24,366 bases of DNA from a virus, in the IMG/VR virus record IMGVR_UViG_3300032288_004454, positions 1 through 24,366 of that record; one strand, 5' to 3'. Positions 13,668 through 24,365 of the stretch are shown here, one piece after another (the stretch's first letter is position 1; every line of letters begins with the position of its first letter). A model generated the notes under the pieces. That model was not told the DNA's origin and did not search any database. It saw only the letters and a list, made by a program, of their open reading frames with translations. A program made the translations under genes and the position numbers.

Positions 13668-14671
13668 TGAAAATTATAAGAAACAATAATACAAAAAATA
13701 TCGTTTTAAATACCGAACAAAATTTTAAACTTGATTTAGGTTGGCAAGAAAATCTTGCTGATTTTAAAGATGAGGTTTTAGATAGTATTATTAATCCTGT
13801 TCTCAATTATGAAACAGTAAGATATATACATGAATCATATACAGGATCTGCTGGTTCACAAACAGATATTTGGTATTCTTTTTTCTTTGATAATGGTAGT
13901 GGGTCATATGTACAGAATTATGCGGCACCATCATCAGATATTACATTAAGAGAAAATGAAATGATGTTGGCACAAGCAACTCGTAGTTTTTTTAGATTAG
14001 AATTTTATAAAACACCATCAAAAGATTGGGACCCTAGAGTTACATATAGTCTAGATGAAATTGTTTATTACATAGATTCAACAAATATCGGTAACATATA
14101 TAAATCATTATCTTCTGGTAACATAAATAATAATCCACAAACTGGTAGTGGATGGACTTTAACTCAAGCAAATAACATTTGTTTCGAGGCACCATATCGC
14201 CAAAATAGAAAATTAGTATTTGCAAAAAATCTATCATTACCACTAGGAGAAAAATATTTGTATTCTGATAACGGAATTAAATTTCATATTCATGTGCCAG
14301 TTTTTCAAGGTACCAATTATAGAAATAAAGAAAATATGTATTTGTTTTGGTTTGAAGATGAAAGCGTTCTAGACGACACATTTTATTTTGGTAATAAAAT
14401 TGGCAACACATTTTTTATGTCAGCAAAATTTTTTAATGCTAAAACATCAGATATAATTGATTTTACTAATAGCGGTTTCACATCAGGACATAGTGTTAAT
14501 GATACAAGTGACATGTACTACCAAGTAGATTTTAATCACGCCAATAGAACGTATTGTGTTTACCCATACACAGGTGGTACTGCAATATTTAAAACAGGAA
14601 GCACGATGAATCAAAGGGTTGGTTGGAATACAGGACAAACTTTTAATCCAATTAAATTTTATGAAAAATGA
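13667..14671 (+). CDS. Structural protein, 334 aa, with CBM5/12-like motif
   Basis: I start it at the ATG at 13667 inside the TAATG overlap, not at the in-frame TTG at 13661, because every neighbouring junction uses this overlap. Residues 120-165 read DWDPRVTYSLDEIVYY, then NIYKSLSSGN and NNNP and a closing W. This is the pattern of CBM5/12-like (chitin-binding type) modules: W, then Y-x-x-x-D-x-V, then Y-x-a/s, n-n-n-P and W. In phages such modules are found in fibre and baseplate proteins and may bind glycans or only serve as small beta folds. The rest is aromatic-rich and beta-like (YLFWFEDESVLDDTFYFG, MYYQVDFNHANRTYCVYPY). The length equals that of T4 gp8 (334 aa), which also lies downstream of gp6 and gp7, but I cannot see a real alignment. 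It overlaps the next gene by ATGA. Confidence 0.68.
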   Translation: MKIIRNNNTKNIVLNTEQNFKLDLGWQENLADFKDEVLDSIINPVLNYETVRYIHESYTGSAGSQTDIWYSFFFDNGSGSYVQNYAAPSSDITLRENEMMLAQATRSFFRLEFYKTPSKDWDPRVTYSLDEIVYYIDSTNIGNIYKSLSSGNINNNPQTGSGWTLTQANNICFEAPYRQNRKLVFAKNLSLPLGEKYLYSDNGIKFHIHVPVFQGTNYRNKENMYLFWFEDESVLDDTFYFGNKIGNTFFMSAKFFNAKTSDIIDFTNSGFTSGHSVNDTSDMYYQVDFNHANRTYCVYPYTGGTAIFKTGSTMNQRVGWNTGQTFNPIKFYEK

Positions 14672-15873
14672 GTAAACTAGAATATACCATATTAAAACCT
14701 AACATTCAAACTGTTAAAATCGTAGGACAAACTAGCCAAAGCTGGTACGATTATGATGATAATATTATACCATGGATTGGAACTGACGAGAATGGTAATG
14801 CGTACAATTTATCACCATTGACAGGGTTAACATATTATATCGTATCTAGTTCATTATCTGATGGATATTACAAATGGGATGGTAGTTCTTGGTATTCAGT
14901 ACCATCTGGACAGACTCAAAATGATTACAATTTACCAATATTTTTAGATGCTGATGCAGATGAAATGGGTGTTATGGTAAGTTTTGCTGATGAAAATGGT
15001 TCAGGTTCGATAGAGCAAATAGACCAATTAGTAAATTTTCTTTATTCGCAAAGCGGTAAAACAATACAAGTGTATAGTTCTGTTAATCCAGACAAATTAA
15101 GAACTATTATAGAACAAAACTATACAATTAATTGGGGTGACGGAACATCCGGTTCGTTTCCAATTAACTCTGGTTCTGTTGGAACATCGTTCCCATCTGT
15201 AACACATACATATACAGGGTCAACAAATTATAATGTTACTATCTTTTTGCAAAGCCCATGGACAACACAAAGTGTTACGAAAGTAATTAATACATCAAAT
15301 CCATTTACAGGTTACACTGGATTAGACATGATGGGGACGTATACGTACACAGAAAATTCTTTATTATATCGAAATTCAACTACGGAATATTATTTATCAT
15401 CTAGTAGAAAACAAAATTATTTAAGTGATTTAGATTACACAAATAATGTATCACACGTTGGTACCGGTAGCACAAAATTCAATGTGGCACTAATGGGTGG
15501 AAGTAGAATTGGTGAATTGAAAAAATATGGTGAACGAACTGTTGTCGGTGCAAATAGTAGTAGTTTAGATGACAATGGTTACCGAATAACTGGATATACC
15601 ATAGACAATCTGTATTATATGGATTATATTGATGGTACAACTATTATTACAGGCTCAGTTACTGGTTACACCAGAGAAGAGGTCTTTAACCAAATGATTA
15701 CAAGAAACGAACATTTCCTAGGTTTTATTGATGACCCTACCGTATATTCTGACATTTTCGTTGAAAGGGGAAAATCAGGTGTGGCGGAATTTAATCTTAG
15801 ATTAAGCGAAATTGATAACATGGATGAGATGGAAATATACGGAAATGGATATTTTACAGTTAAAAAAACATAA
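14668..15873 (+). CDS. Structural protein, 401 aa, with PKD-like domain
   Basis: The ATG at 14668 overlaps the previous TGA (ATGA). Around residues 152-200 the sequence reads INWGDGTSG (N155-G159), then HTYTGSTNYNVTIFL, the classic PKD-domain signature of W-G-D-G-T followed by H-x-Y and alternating beta residues. PKD domains are Ig-like folds used as spacers or protein/glycan contacts on surface proteins. The N-terminal half contains YYIVSSSLSDGYYKWDGSSW, a short repeat-like fold. The C-terminal ~60 residues (NEHFLGFIDDPTVYSDIFVE, RGKSGVAEFNLRLSEI, EIYGNGYF) look like a conserved attachment domain. The protein is probably a baseplate or fibre-connecting part; no T4 counterpart is evident. A 24-base gap with the ATATTTATA element follows its stop. 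Confidence 0.7.
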   Translation: MSKLEYTILKPNIQTVKIVGQTSQSWYDYDDNIIPWIGTDENGNAYNLSPLTGLTYYIVSSSLSDGYYKWDGSSWYSVPSGQTQNDYNLPIFLDADADEMGVMVSFADENGSGSIEQIDQLVNFLYSQSGKTIQVYSSVNPDKLRTIIEQNYTINWGDGTSGSFPINSGSVGTSFPSVTHTYTGSTNYNVTIFLQSPWTTQSVTKVINTSNPFTGYTGLDMMGTYTYTENSLLYRNSTTEYYLSSSRKQNYLSDLDYTNNVSHVGTGSTKFNVALMGGSRIGELKKYGERTVVGANSSSLDDNGYRITGYTIDNLYYMDYIDGTTIITGSVTGYTREEVFNQMITRNEHFLGFIDDPTVYSDIFVERGKSGVAEFNLRLSEIDNMDEMEIYGNGYFTVKKT

Positions 15874-22173: not shown

Positions 22174-22182
22174 ATATTTATA
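22174..22182 (+). promoter_or_regulatory. Late-promoter-like element ATATTTATA before the 228-aa gene
   Basis: The exact 9-mer lies 10 bases before the ATG at 22193, the same spacing as at 15879-15887. It is preceded by the TAAAA repeat. It would separate expression of the small downstream genes from that of the giant tail gene. Confidence 0.55.
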
Positions 22183-22192
22183 AAAACAAATC

Positions 22193-22879
22193 ATGGCAAG
22201 CGTAACATTAACATACTCAGGAAATAGTCAAAATACAGGAAATTTTGACATAGAAGTTCAAAGCGTAACATCAACTTTATTTTCAAAAGTTAGCGGAGGA
22301 GGTTCCGTAGGGGGATCACCATCAATAGGTTCTACAGGTAGTACAATGAGTATTTTATTTTCAGAAAGTTCCTCAGGGCCACTTGTGGCAAATTTAGGAC
22401 TTTATAATAACGCAGGTACAAATAGATTTTATGCAACAGGTGTAACTAGAAATCAACTAACAGGAGGAACTTATACAGTATCAGGAATCACTTGTGGTGA
22501 TGATGCAATTATAGTAACAAGTAAAGGTGATGTTAATGCACAATGCACCGGAAATGTTGTTAAATCATTATCAGGTATAACTGAAACCTTACCAACATTT
22601 ACCATAACAGCAACATCAGCATTAATTAGCGGCATTTATACTGATGACATTGTAACAACTCAGGTTAATTATTCTGGTTTAACGGGTGAAGCAGCAACAC
22701 AACATTCAACACTTCAAACTTTATCGGTGGTAACCACAACATCAAATAGAATTGTAACATCACCAGCACAAACGTTGTATCATGGAACATATAAATTTGA
22801 ATTAATTCATTCCTGTCCACAAGGTAGCGCACGATCAGATGGTAAAAGTAGTGGTCTTGTCTTAACTCAATGTCCTTAA
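22193..22879 (+). CDS. Small beta-rich structural protein, 228 aa, no Thr-Pro linker
   Basis: I recognise no family. The protein is rich in Ser, Thr, Gly and Val, with short beta-type stretches (ASVTLTYSGNSQNTGNFDIE, then VQSVTSTLF), and includes a glycine/serine loop GGGSVGGSPSIGSTGSTMS near residues 35-53. Cysteines occur at about 100, 117, 214 and 227 (CGDD, QCTGN, SCPQG, QCP at the very end), enough for two disulfides. It looks like two consecutive Ig-like or fibronectin-like halves: residues 1-110, then 120-228 beginning SLSGITETLPTFTITATSA. No signal peptide or membrane helix. It is flanked by its own promoter-like element upstream and an intrinsic terminator 10 bases downstream, so it is probably a single-gene transcript, suited to a product needed in a different amount from its neighbours. 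A virion decoration or fibre part is the likely role, inferred from position. Confidence 0.65.
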   Translation: MASVTLTYSGNSQNTGNFDIEVQSVTSTLFSKVSGGGSVGGSPSIGSTGSTMSILFSESSSGPLVANLGLYNNAGTNRFYATGVTRNQLTGGTYTVSGITCGDDAIIVTSKGDVNAQCTGNVVKSLSGITETLPTFTITATSALISGIYTDDIVTTQVNYSGLTGEAATQHSTLQTLSVVTTTSNRIVTSPAQTLYHGTYKFELIHSCPQGSARSDGKSSGLVLTQCP

Positions 22880-22888
22880 TTAAAATAT

Positions 22889-22917
22889 TAAACCCCCTTT
22901 ATTATAAGGGGTTTTTT
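22889..22917 (+). terminator. Intrinsic terminator after the 228-aa gene
   Basis: AAACCCCCTT, a six-base TATTAT loop and AAGGGGTTT form a GC-cored hairpin with one unpaired C, followed by a run of six Ts. It starts 10 bases after the stop and ends before the next ATATTTATA element. The T-run is on the right side, so it terminates rightward transcription. Confidence 0.88.
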
Positions 22918-22926
22918 ATTTAATTT

Positions 22927-22935
22927 ATATTTATA
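22927..22935 (+). promoter_or_regulatory. Late-promoter-like element ATATTTATA before the 257-aa gene
   Basis: The exact 9-mer lies just after the terminator and four bases before the ATG at 22940. The terminator-element-ATG order is the clearest evidence in the window that the 9-mer is a promoter part, because a terminator here would otherwise silence the genes behind it. Confidence 0.62.
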
Positions 22936-22939
22936 GGAT

Positions 22940-23713
22940 ATGCCAGAATATTTTGCAGCAAATGTCAATATAGGGAAAAAGGGTAACTCGGTTAAAACGA
23001 TTAGTTTATACGCATGTTCTGGTTCAACTGAATCAACATGTGAAACAACTCCAATTAGCGGTTATACTGATATAAATTGGGTAACTTTTAACTATAACTC
23101 TACTGGTGTAACAATTGATGAAAATAGTTCATCAATATCAGGAATGACAATATATGTAAGTGGTTTAACATTATATAAACATACACACATTAAAGCTGTT
23201 TCCACGTCATCGTATTTTAATACATGTTCTACATCACAAATTATTCCAATTTTAAATATACCAACACCAACACCGACCCCTACCGCAACACCGATTCCAT
23301 GTTCATTTAACGCAACAATAGTTTACGGGTTACCAACAACACCGACACCTACTCCAACAGCAACACCGACATGTAGTTTTAATGCAACAATTGTTTACGG
23401 CTTACCAATAACACCAACACCTACTCCAACAGCAACACCGACCGTTACGCCAACCGTTACACCAACTGCGACATCTCTACCAAAATATAATGTTTATGAA
23501 TTATGTGGTTGGACAGATTCGAATTTACGATATAAATATATATTATATAATGTGACATACGGAACCAAAGGTTTTATTGATACAACAACTTGTGCATCAC
23601 AAGTTTCAATTTCCGGTGGTATACTATTATCAGAAGTAAATTCAACGTATCCATTAGCAATGCCAGCGGGGTCATTTGAAACCGACCCAATTTCATGTGC
23701 ATTATGTAGTTAA
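22940..23713 (+). CDS. Thr-Pro-linked modular surface protein, 257 aa
   Basis: The N-terminal ~106 residues form a head module ([15 protein letters not shown], then [16 protein letters not shown] and [13 protein letters not shown]) that resembles the head of the next gene's product. From about residue 108 come three Thr-Pro linkers separated by two copies of the micro-module [12 protein letters not shown] (Cys at 121 and 145, a 24-residue period). The C-terminal ~75 residues form a different Cys-rich module ([13 protein letters not shown] to DPISCALCS). The [12 protein letters not shown] copies mirror the DC-x-FDIVLNVL copies in the 1776-aa protein: Cys, small residue, Phe, acidic or Asn, hydrophobic strand, then TPTPTPT. 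This is a smaller version of the same architecture, so a host-contact or fibre role is inferred. The C-terminal module probably is the exposed tip. Confidence 0.72.
23261..23480 (+). repeat. Thr-Pro linkers and duplicated [12 protein letters not shown] unit of the 257-aa gene
   Basis: Thr-Pro tracts at about 23261-23298, 23336-23370 and 23408-23475 surround two 12-residue units starting at 23300 and 23372. The two units encode identical amino acids but differ at five codons, including TCA versus AGT for Ser, so they are not a recent copy of one another. Confidence 0.9.
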
Positions 23714-23737
23714 TAAAAAAATAAAAAAATAAAAAAA
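23714..23737 (+). repeat. Octamer TAAAAAAA x3 forming the whole gap before the 195-aa gene
   Basis: Right after the TAA stop, T plus seven As is repeated three times and runs straight into the ATG at 23738. There is no ATATTTATA element and no Shine-Dalgarno here. The A-rich leader may support translation, as in Bacteroidota, and the gene is probably co-transcribed with the 257-aa gene. Confidence 0.9.
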
Positions 23738-24325
23738 ATGTCAGTACCAGTAACAATAACATTAAATTCACCAGTAGGGTCACCAGGACCTTTTAGTTTG
23801 TATTCATGTATTGAATCAACTTGCTCTGGTTCATTAACACCATTTGTAACAGGTGTAACGTTAATTGACTTACAAACTGGTAGTTTTATTCCTAATATTA
23901 GTGGAAGCAATCCTACTTACGTTAAAATTAAATCTACTGGCGCAGGATGTGACTATGAAATTATTAAACCAATTACTGGAATTCCAACACCAACACCAAC
24001 ACCAACGGCTACCTCAACACCAACTGTTACACCTACACCAACAGCAACTTCAGTATTTACACCAACACCAACACCAACCGTTACACCAACACCAACACCA
24101 ACATCAACTCCGATAAGTATTTGGTATCAATTAACCAATTGCTCTGATAGTTCTATAGTATATTCAGAAGAATATCCTGAAGGCCAATTTGCAATTAATG
24201 AAAAAGTTACAACACCTGGTAATGTATGGGTAATTACTAATGTTAATACAACAACTAATCCAGGTGGCACTTTATACGCAATAACTTCAACAGGATTTAT
24301 GGGTTGCGGAGGAGTTCCAAGCTAA
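23738..24325 (+). CDS. Thr-Pro-linked modular surface protein, 195 aa
   Basis: Paralogue of the 257-aa neighbour in its head: PFSLYSCIESTCSG, TPFVTGVT, YVKIKSTGAGCDYEI and then [11 protein letters not shown], against [15 protein letters not shown] and [12 protein letters not shown] next door. The head spans residues ~1-80, with cysteines near 24, 29 and 69. One Thr-Pro linker (about 82-126) follows. The C-terminal ~68 residues form a third kind of module (WYQLTNCSDSSIVYSEEYP to STGFMGCGGVPS) with two cysteines and alternating beta stretches. It has no C-x-F micro-module. The gap upstream is only the TAAAAAAA octamer repeat, so it probably shares a transcript with the 257-aa gene. The pattern of common head, rigid linker and unlike tip suggests a set of interchangeable receptor-binding or decoration proteins; function is inferred. 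Confidence 0.72.
   Translation: MSVPVTITLNSPVGSPGPFSLYSCIESTCSGSLTPFVTGVTLIDLQTGSFIPNISGSNPTYVKIKSTGAGCDYEIIKPITGIPTPTPTPTATSTPTVTPTPTATSVFTPTPTPTVTPTPTPTSTPISIWYQLTNCSDSSIVYSEEYPEGQFAINEKVTTPGNVWVITNVNTTTNPGGTLYAITSTGFMGCGGVPS
23983..24116 (+). repeat. Thr-Pro linker of the 195-aa gene
   Basis: About 44 codons of Thr-Pro repeat with Val, Ala, Ser and one Phe join the head and tip modules. Sequence style and codon choice match the linkers in the two other genes. Confidence 0.9.
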
Positions 24326-24356: not shown

Positions 24357-24365
24357 ATATTTATA
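24357..24365 (+). promoter_or_regulatory. Late-promoter-like element ATATTTATA at the right edge
   Basis: The exact 9-mer ends one base before the end of the window, 32 bases after the last stop and after an A-rich run. By analogy with the other four copies it predicts a further rightward gene starting within about 3-10 bases beyond the window. Confidence 0.5.

Follow-up and report, generated by a model that had tools for sequence, protein, structure and literature searches.

An ordered array of head-rod-tip genes with exchangeable tips, probably coding for virion adhesins, in uncultured lake phages

The right end of a linear virus record of 24,366 bases, the whole of which we call the window, carries genes that probably belong to a slot-ordered array of virion adhesins or receptor-binding proteins, built on a head-rod-tip plan and with exchangeable tips. 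In the arrangement we propose, the small N-terminal head, which is kept by array position, would dock the protein at a specific site of the tail or baseplate, and the Thr-Pro rod, variable in length, would probably form an extended polyproline-like stalk that holds out at least one C-terminal module touching the host surface. Evolution retains the heads and replaces the tips. The location in the virion, the docking by the head and the binding of a surface by the tip are what we infer for these proteins; the modular plan itself can be followed directly in the window and in its relatives.

Two genes at the right end had been singled out in an earlier note on this DNA, and both are present where it placed them, coding on the + strand for proteins of 257 and 195 aa (Table 1). 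Both proteins contain the SLYxC motif, the further head Cys and the 10-residue junction motif that the note had described, and the Thr-Pro rods proved to be 73 residues long in the 257-aa protein and 43 residues long in the 195-aa protein. The tips are indeed unrelated, as the 257-aa protein is absent among the matches of a profile of the 195-aa protein's tip (tip 195). Their description as Cys-rich suits the tip of the 257-aa protein (tip 257; four Cys in 79 residues) but not tip 195 (two in 70), so it is best taken as a loose label.

The array is bordered on the left by a gene that we refer to as BIG, whose product has a conserved N-terminal part (about aa 1-1018) followed by a long Thr-Pro rod with 116 TP, which includes repeated C-x-F-D-I-V-L-N-V-L motifs and several globular modules. 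This rod is much longer than those of the 257-aa and 195-aa neighbors and has modules of its own. The N-terminal part is 49-62% identical in 16 relatives, while BIG gave no match in a Pfam scan and no sequence relative in the PDB. Immediately after BIG, the 228-aa gene occupies the first slot. It has no Thr-Pro rod, matches the head families of the 195-aa and 257-aa proteins weakly (A7, E 7e-4, and A9, E 3e-3, respectively; nine proteins compared), and its slot position agrees with that in L013, L017, L020, and L031. Both this gene and the longer rod of BIG had been overlooked in the earlier note. We also observed that the rods of BIG in the window, of the 257-aa gene, and of BIG in the relatives are broken by a strand-like motif with one Cys, in 10-residue, 22-residue and other versions, which is near-uniform inside a gene and different between phages, as if homogenised. 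Further upstream (14668-15873), a 401-aa protein of the structural region contains, by eye, a PKD-like stretch (TINWGDGTSGSFP...VTHTYTG).

Table 1. Features of the array and its borders; positions refer to the window unless a related locus is named.
Feature	Position	Strand	Remark
BIG, 1776 aa	16821..22151	+	Left border of the array
ATATTTATA upstream of the 228-aa gene	22174..22182	+	Late-promoter-like
228-aa gene	22193..22879	+	First slot after BIG
Intrinsic-terminator-like hairpin (AACCCCC...GGGG + T run)	22891..22917	+	228-aa/257-aa intergenic; by eye from the sequence
ATATTTATA upstream of the 257-aa gene	22927..22935	+	4 bp upstream of the gene
257-aa head-rod-tip gene	22940..23713	+	Open reading frame
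257-aa protein, head	22940..23254	+	aa 1-105
257-aa protein, Thr-Pro rod	23255..23473	+	aa 106-178
257-aa rod, knob motif, copy 1	23300..23332	+	11 residues
257-aa rod, knob motif, copy 2	23372..23404	+	11 residues
257-aa protein, tip	23474..23710	+	aa 179-257
195-aa head-rod-tip gene	23738..24325	+	Open reading frame
195-aa protein, head	23738..23983	+	aa 1-82; family aligned in A7
195-aa protein, Thr-Pro rod	23984..24112	+	aa 83-125
195-aa protein, tip	24113..24322	+	aa 126-195
ATATTTATA of the following 740-aa gene	24357..24365	+	Gene start at 24370, just outside the window
Cadherin/SprB-tipped head-rod genes	L018 1497, L019 2705, L076 2027, L077 3680, L081 2153		1268-1659 aa

We fetched relatives from IMG/VR with a profile of the 740-aa protein, whose gene follows the window directly, and obtained 80 loci, 57 after removal of duplicates, all of them metagenomic contigs. 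With these relatives as intermediates, profile-profile comparison established the claimed relationship between the two heads, which direct BLASTP of the 257-aa against the 195-aa protein did not align. Comparison of the 257-type heads (alignment A9) with the 195-type heads (A7) using hhalign gave a probability of 91% (E 1.1e-6), and an alignment of six head sequences joins both types. The first-slot heads matched the 195-type heads more strongly (97.6%, E 3.5e-12), and heads 50% identical to that of the 257-aa protein occur in L015 and L079. The idea that all heads form one family was rejected, as no homology links head cluster H1 to heads of the 195 type. Since some head families are non-homologous, the common plan is broader than one domain family.

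Mosaic exchange of tips among relatives had been set beforehand as a test, and we found it. When the DNA of the same slot is compared between related phages, identity follows a sawtooth: it is high in the head, at chance level in the tip, and high again in the next gene. Particularly, in consecutive genes of L081 and L089 the heads are about 85-100%, the tips about 45-55%, and the next gene 93-100% identical in DNA. The repetitive rod and the short intergenic DNA would be plausible crossover points, as identity is lost where head meets rod and recovers with the following gene. For related phages, 35 slot-matched pairs gave a median DNA identity of 73% in the head, 46% in the last 180 nt (45.7% for random tip pairs) and 81% downstream, and over 397 slot-matched pairs head identity tracked that of the 740-aa protein (rho 0.34) and the last tip did so weakly (rho 0.15), although neither set of pairs is independent, since the same loci enter many of them. 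Even where the 740-aa proteins are 80-95% identical, just a third of the last tips are still homologous.

The same independence is apparent in individual modules. After removing rod-like pieces we kept 148 globular tip modules, among which 28 pairs are at least 70% identical, nine of them on heads without detectable similarity. Among 22 pairs of heads at least 75% identical and with comparable tips, eight show no tip homology and six a weak one. The tips of L079 and L091 share 86% DNA identity over 826 nt and those of L015 and L087 93% over 184 nt, in each case on unrelated heads and in phages whose 740-aa proteins are 50-51% identical. Tip 195 is found 84-90% identical on another head in L061, L011, and L013 (87% DNA identity with L061, the heads being different), and the head of the 195-aa protein is 82% identical in protein and 85% in DNA to one in L015, where the tips are other. 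Tip 257 had no relative among the loci examined except in its near-identical contig. Some junctions could be assembly artefacts, but the head-tip combination involving tip 195 recurs in independent samples. The N-terminal part is thus independent of the C-terminal part, as in modular phage receptor-binding proteins, and comparison of sequences demonstrates that tips have been exchanged from slot to slot and from phage to phage. The earlier picture of a single attachment part and spacer combined with many tips stands insofar as tips do not co-vary with heads; the rightward direction in which the set was predicted to extend does not. In L015 (7751-8989) we also noted that two short frames of 106 and 74 aa, tip-like in sequence, come after the homologue of the 257-aa protein; the gene may be broken, or the assembly may contain a frameshift.

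Profile scans assigned head and tip to no Pfam or PHROG family and gave no match to gp36, gp37, or gp38, and no sequence or fold relative of known function was found for head, tip, or the 740-aa gene. We modelled the head and the tip of the 195-aa protein separately: the tip is predicted to be antiparallel beta (pLDDT 80), confidence in the head model is modest (pLDDT 69), and fold searches with both returned nothing at E < 0.001. INPHARED phages searched with BIG, the 740-aa protein, a head, and a tip gave no match. In genome contigs searched with the 740-aa profile no relative was confirmed, so this search provided no host link. In one slot the tip consists of cadherin and SprB repeats in series, both adhesion-type domains recognized by Pfam, behind head and rod (Table 1). 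SprB repeats take their name from a gliding adhesin of flavobacteria, and the presence of these repeats would favor a role in surface adhesion.

That no tip matches a known receptor-binding fold counts toward a different function, namely that these proteins are decoration fibers of the capsid or tail, glue-like or binding mucus or particles, instead of binders of a host receptor; their tips would then vary by binding diverse environmental glycans or by evading grazers or other phages. Ig-like and adhesion domains do occur as decorations on phage capsids, and each phage carries several different tips, beyond the need for one host receptor. Nevertheless, we regard this explanation as unlikely, as baseplate wedge genes precede the array, which adjoins BIG and runs in one transcriptional direction, and its tips turn over at a rate typical of host-recognition modules, for example those of Klebsiella phage receptor-binding proteins (PMC8262889). 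The position near the baseplate and the rapid turnover of tips fit receptor-binding proteins, and receptor binding by the tips is plausible.

The relatives are uncultured and come from many lake metagenomes. Wherever the contig is long enough, a BIG-type rod protein lies upstream of the 740-aa gene, and the interval between them holds from zero (L085 and L086) to seven genes, often of the head-rod-tip type. The head families keep their order, with GPFNISGTT-type heads in the first slot, a slot for MGLNVRLYNI-type heads, and a final slot whose members resemble the genes of the window. The plan has exceptions in the array, as some genes have no rod; head/tip boundaries were drawn with a simple composition rule, by which some array genes were missed. 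Directly before the last slot, a conserved rodless protein of ~214 aa (MGTFNRxANLNDSIFFQRGVV...) is encoded in L091 (8188-8832), L018 (8174-8818), and L090 (8539-9180). A 167-aa gene inside the array region of L091 (3635-4138) contains, by eye, a Hint/intein-type-like domain (CLVQGTLISMADGTSK...).

The homology of the 257-aa and 195-aa heads and the low complexity of the rod would also be expected of a simple tandem duplication pair joined to a Thr-Pro linker of no special significance. We consider this very improbable: the head types hold their order across distant phages, which indicates that the slots are old and individually conserved, and the rods end in structured, individually inherited modules. 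Hardly credible at all is that no exchange takes place and tips merely evolve so much faster than heads that orthologous similarity is lost, as the tips of close relatives, often without detectable similarity, might suggest, given that unrelated heads of distantly related phages carry near-identical tips, that the boundaries in the DNA profiles are sharp with no graded loss, and that gradual divergence cannot raise similarity to a tip on a foreign head. An ordered set of adhesins with exchangeable tips is the reading we retain.

The right limit of the set could be determined in L009 (IMGVR 3300033571_018728), which matches the window proteins at ~100% and extends past the window. The earlier note expected the series to continue rightward and proposed inspecting the genes there for the same head; we found none in L009, and the set extends upstream instead. 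As the next gene in L009 is that of the headless 740-aa protein, the series stops at the window edge; other genes without head or rod follow it. The promoter-like element at the right edge, which had been taken as a sign of continuation, is real (ATATTTATA), but it marks the 740-aa gene and not further heads. The motif stands just 5′ of many structural genes, including the 740-aa gene, and has five copies on the window's + strand (5711, 15879, 22174, 22927, and 24357), each of them just before a gene. Moreover, TATTTAT is located within 40 bases upstream of 70 of the 116 head-rod-tip genes in relatives, mostly at position −12 or −13, whereas a control stretch gave 1 of 116. Judging from its placement, the element looks like a candidate late-gene promoter very near the start codon, which would give a very short leader or none. 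A gap of 24 bp separates the 257-aa gene from the 195-aa gene, which has no ATATTTATA of its own, and cotranscription of the two is therefore probable. Elsewhere in L009 (11509-12333), a gene resembling a nucleotide-sugar dehydrogenase lies between RuvC-like and primase-like genes (names given by reading the sequence); it is absent at that place in L010, L011, and L012.

Regarding the phages that carry the array, the window genes upstream of it include T4-type baseplate wedge subunits (gp25-like and gp6-like), and gp23 was present in all three jumbo records searched (G001-G003), so that the T4-like assignment draws gp23 from these records and the wedge from the window. The relatives are records of 200-336 kb, and bS21 was found in six of the eight searched. 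In G001-G003, bS21 and gp23 are encoded on opposite strands a few kb apart, an arrangement seen in relatives only, as the 24-kb window does not cover the region. Lake jumbo phages with bS21 near gp23 on the opposite strand, with Bacteroidetes as predicted hosts, are described in PMC9723584. The array carriers are best explained as jumbo phages that are T4-like and encode bS21; for their published relatives, Bacteroidetes are the predicted hosts.

Modules of the array also occur outside this group. Many other phage contigs encode the 195-type head, often with poly-Thr as the linker instead of Thr-Pro, and tip 195 is ~72% identical in L110 and L108, on poly-Thr linkers. In L110 (114 kb), where a search for gp23 gave no match, this tip stands behind a different N-terminal part. 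Tip cassettes may form a mobile repertoire, previously undescribed, that circulates between ordered anchor slots of T4-like jumbo phages and also into phages with poly-Thr linkers, one virion showing several independently exchangeable adhesins, a proposal for which we see about equal chances of being right or wrong. If it is right, surface specificity could be changed one slot at a time.

The anchor-slot array represents a readable genome site that probably encodes the specificity for hosts or surfaces, and it offers a natural collection of small putative binding domains, many of them without Pfam, PHROGs, or PDB relatives. It also makes two ideas testable: that large phages vary their adsorption by replacing one adhesin out of a parallel set as opposed to mutating a single fiber, and that tips pass between unrelated phages with common hosts. 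We found no description of such an array in the literature searched, most subscription journals lying outside its scope, and a keyword search of PMC9723584 showed none of a head-rod-tip array among the passages listed.

Several known systems resemble the array in part. T-even phages have tail-fiber adhesins with a variable distal tip, and these share with the array the T4-type baseplate genes, a fiber-like element, and the variable distal tip; unlike them, the array has anchor, stalk, and tip all in one short chain per gene. The SprB/cadherin-repeat adhesins of gliding Bacteroidetes contain the same Pfam repeats as the tips in L018, L019, L076, L077, and L081, but here the repeats belong to phage proteins, in which a short head and rod precede them. 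The bS21 jumbo phages of lake Bacteroidetes (PMC9723584) are matched by our 200-336 kb relatives with gp23 and, near it on the opposite strand, bS21. Far-T4 phages are aquatic, gp23-encoding relatives of T4, some of them predicted on Bacteroidetes (PMC4360716, PMC7198788); our relatives are likened to them by gene content, in being aquatic and encoding gp23, and differ in the 740-aa protein, which has no match in the phage record collection. The closest parallel in design is that of Klebsiella phage receptor-binding proteins, in which a C-terminal specificity module is exchanged horizontally behind an N-terminal anchor (PMC8262889, PMC6872550). Both have a conserved N-terminal and an exchangeable C-terminal part, exchange across lineages, and often more than one such protein per phage. 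Nevertheless, the Klebsiella phage proteins are depolymerases with a dome-like anchor and a helix, whereas the array has small uncatalogued heads and tips, a Thr-Pro rod as spacer, and up to several ordered slots side by side. That phages exchange C-terminal specificity modules while keeping an N-terminal anchor is already known, for example from Klebsiella phages (PMC8262889); what is new is the ordered multi-slot array, its rods of Thr-Pro, head and tip domains that are uncatalogued, and the sharing of tips across head families and phage types.
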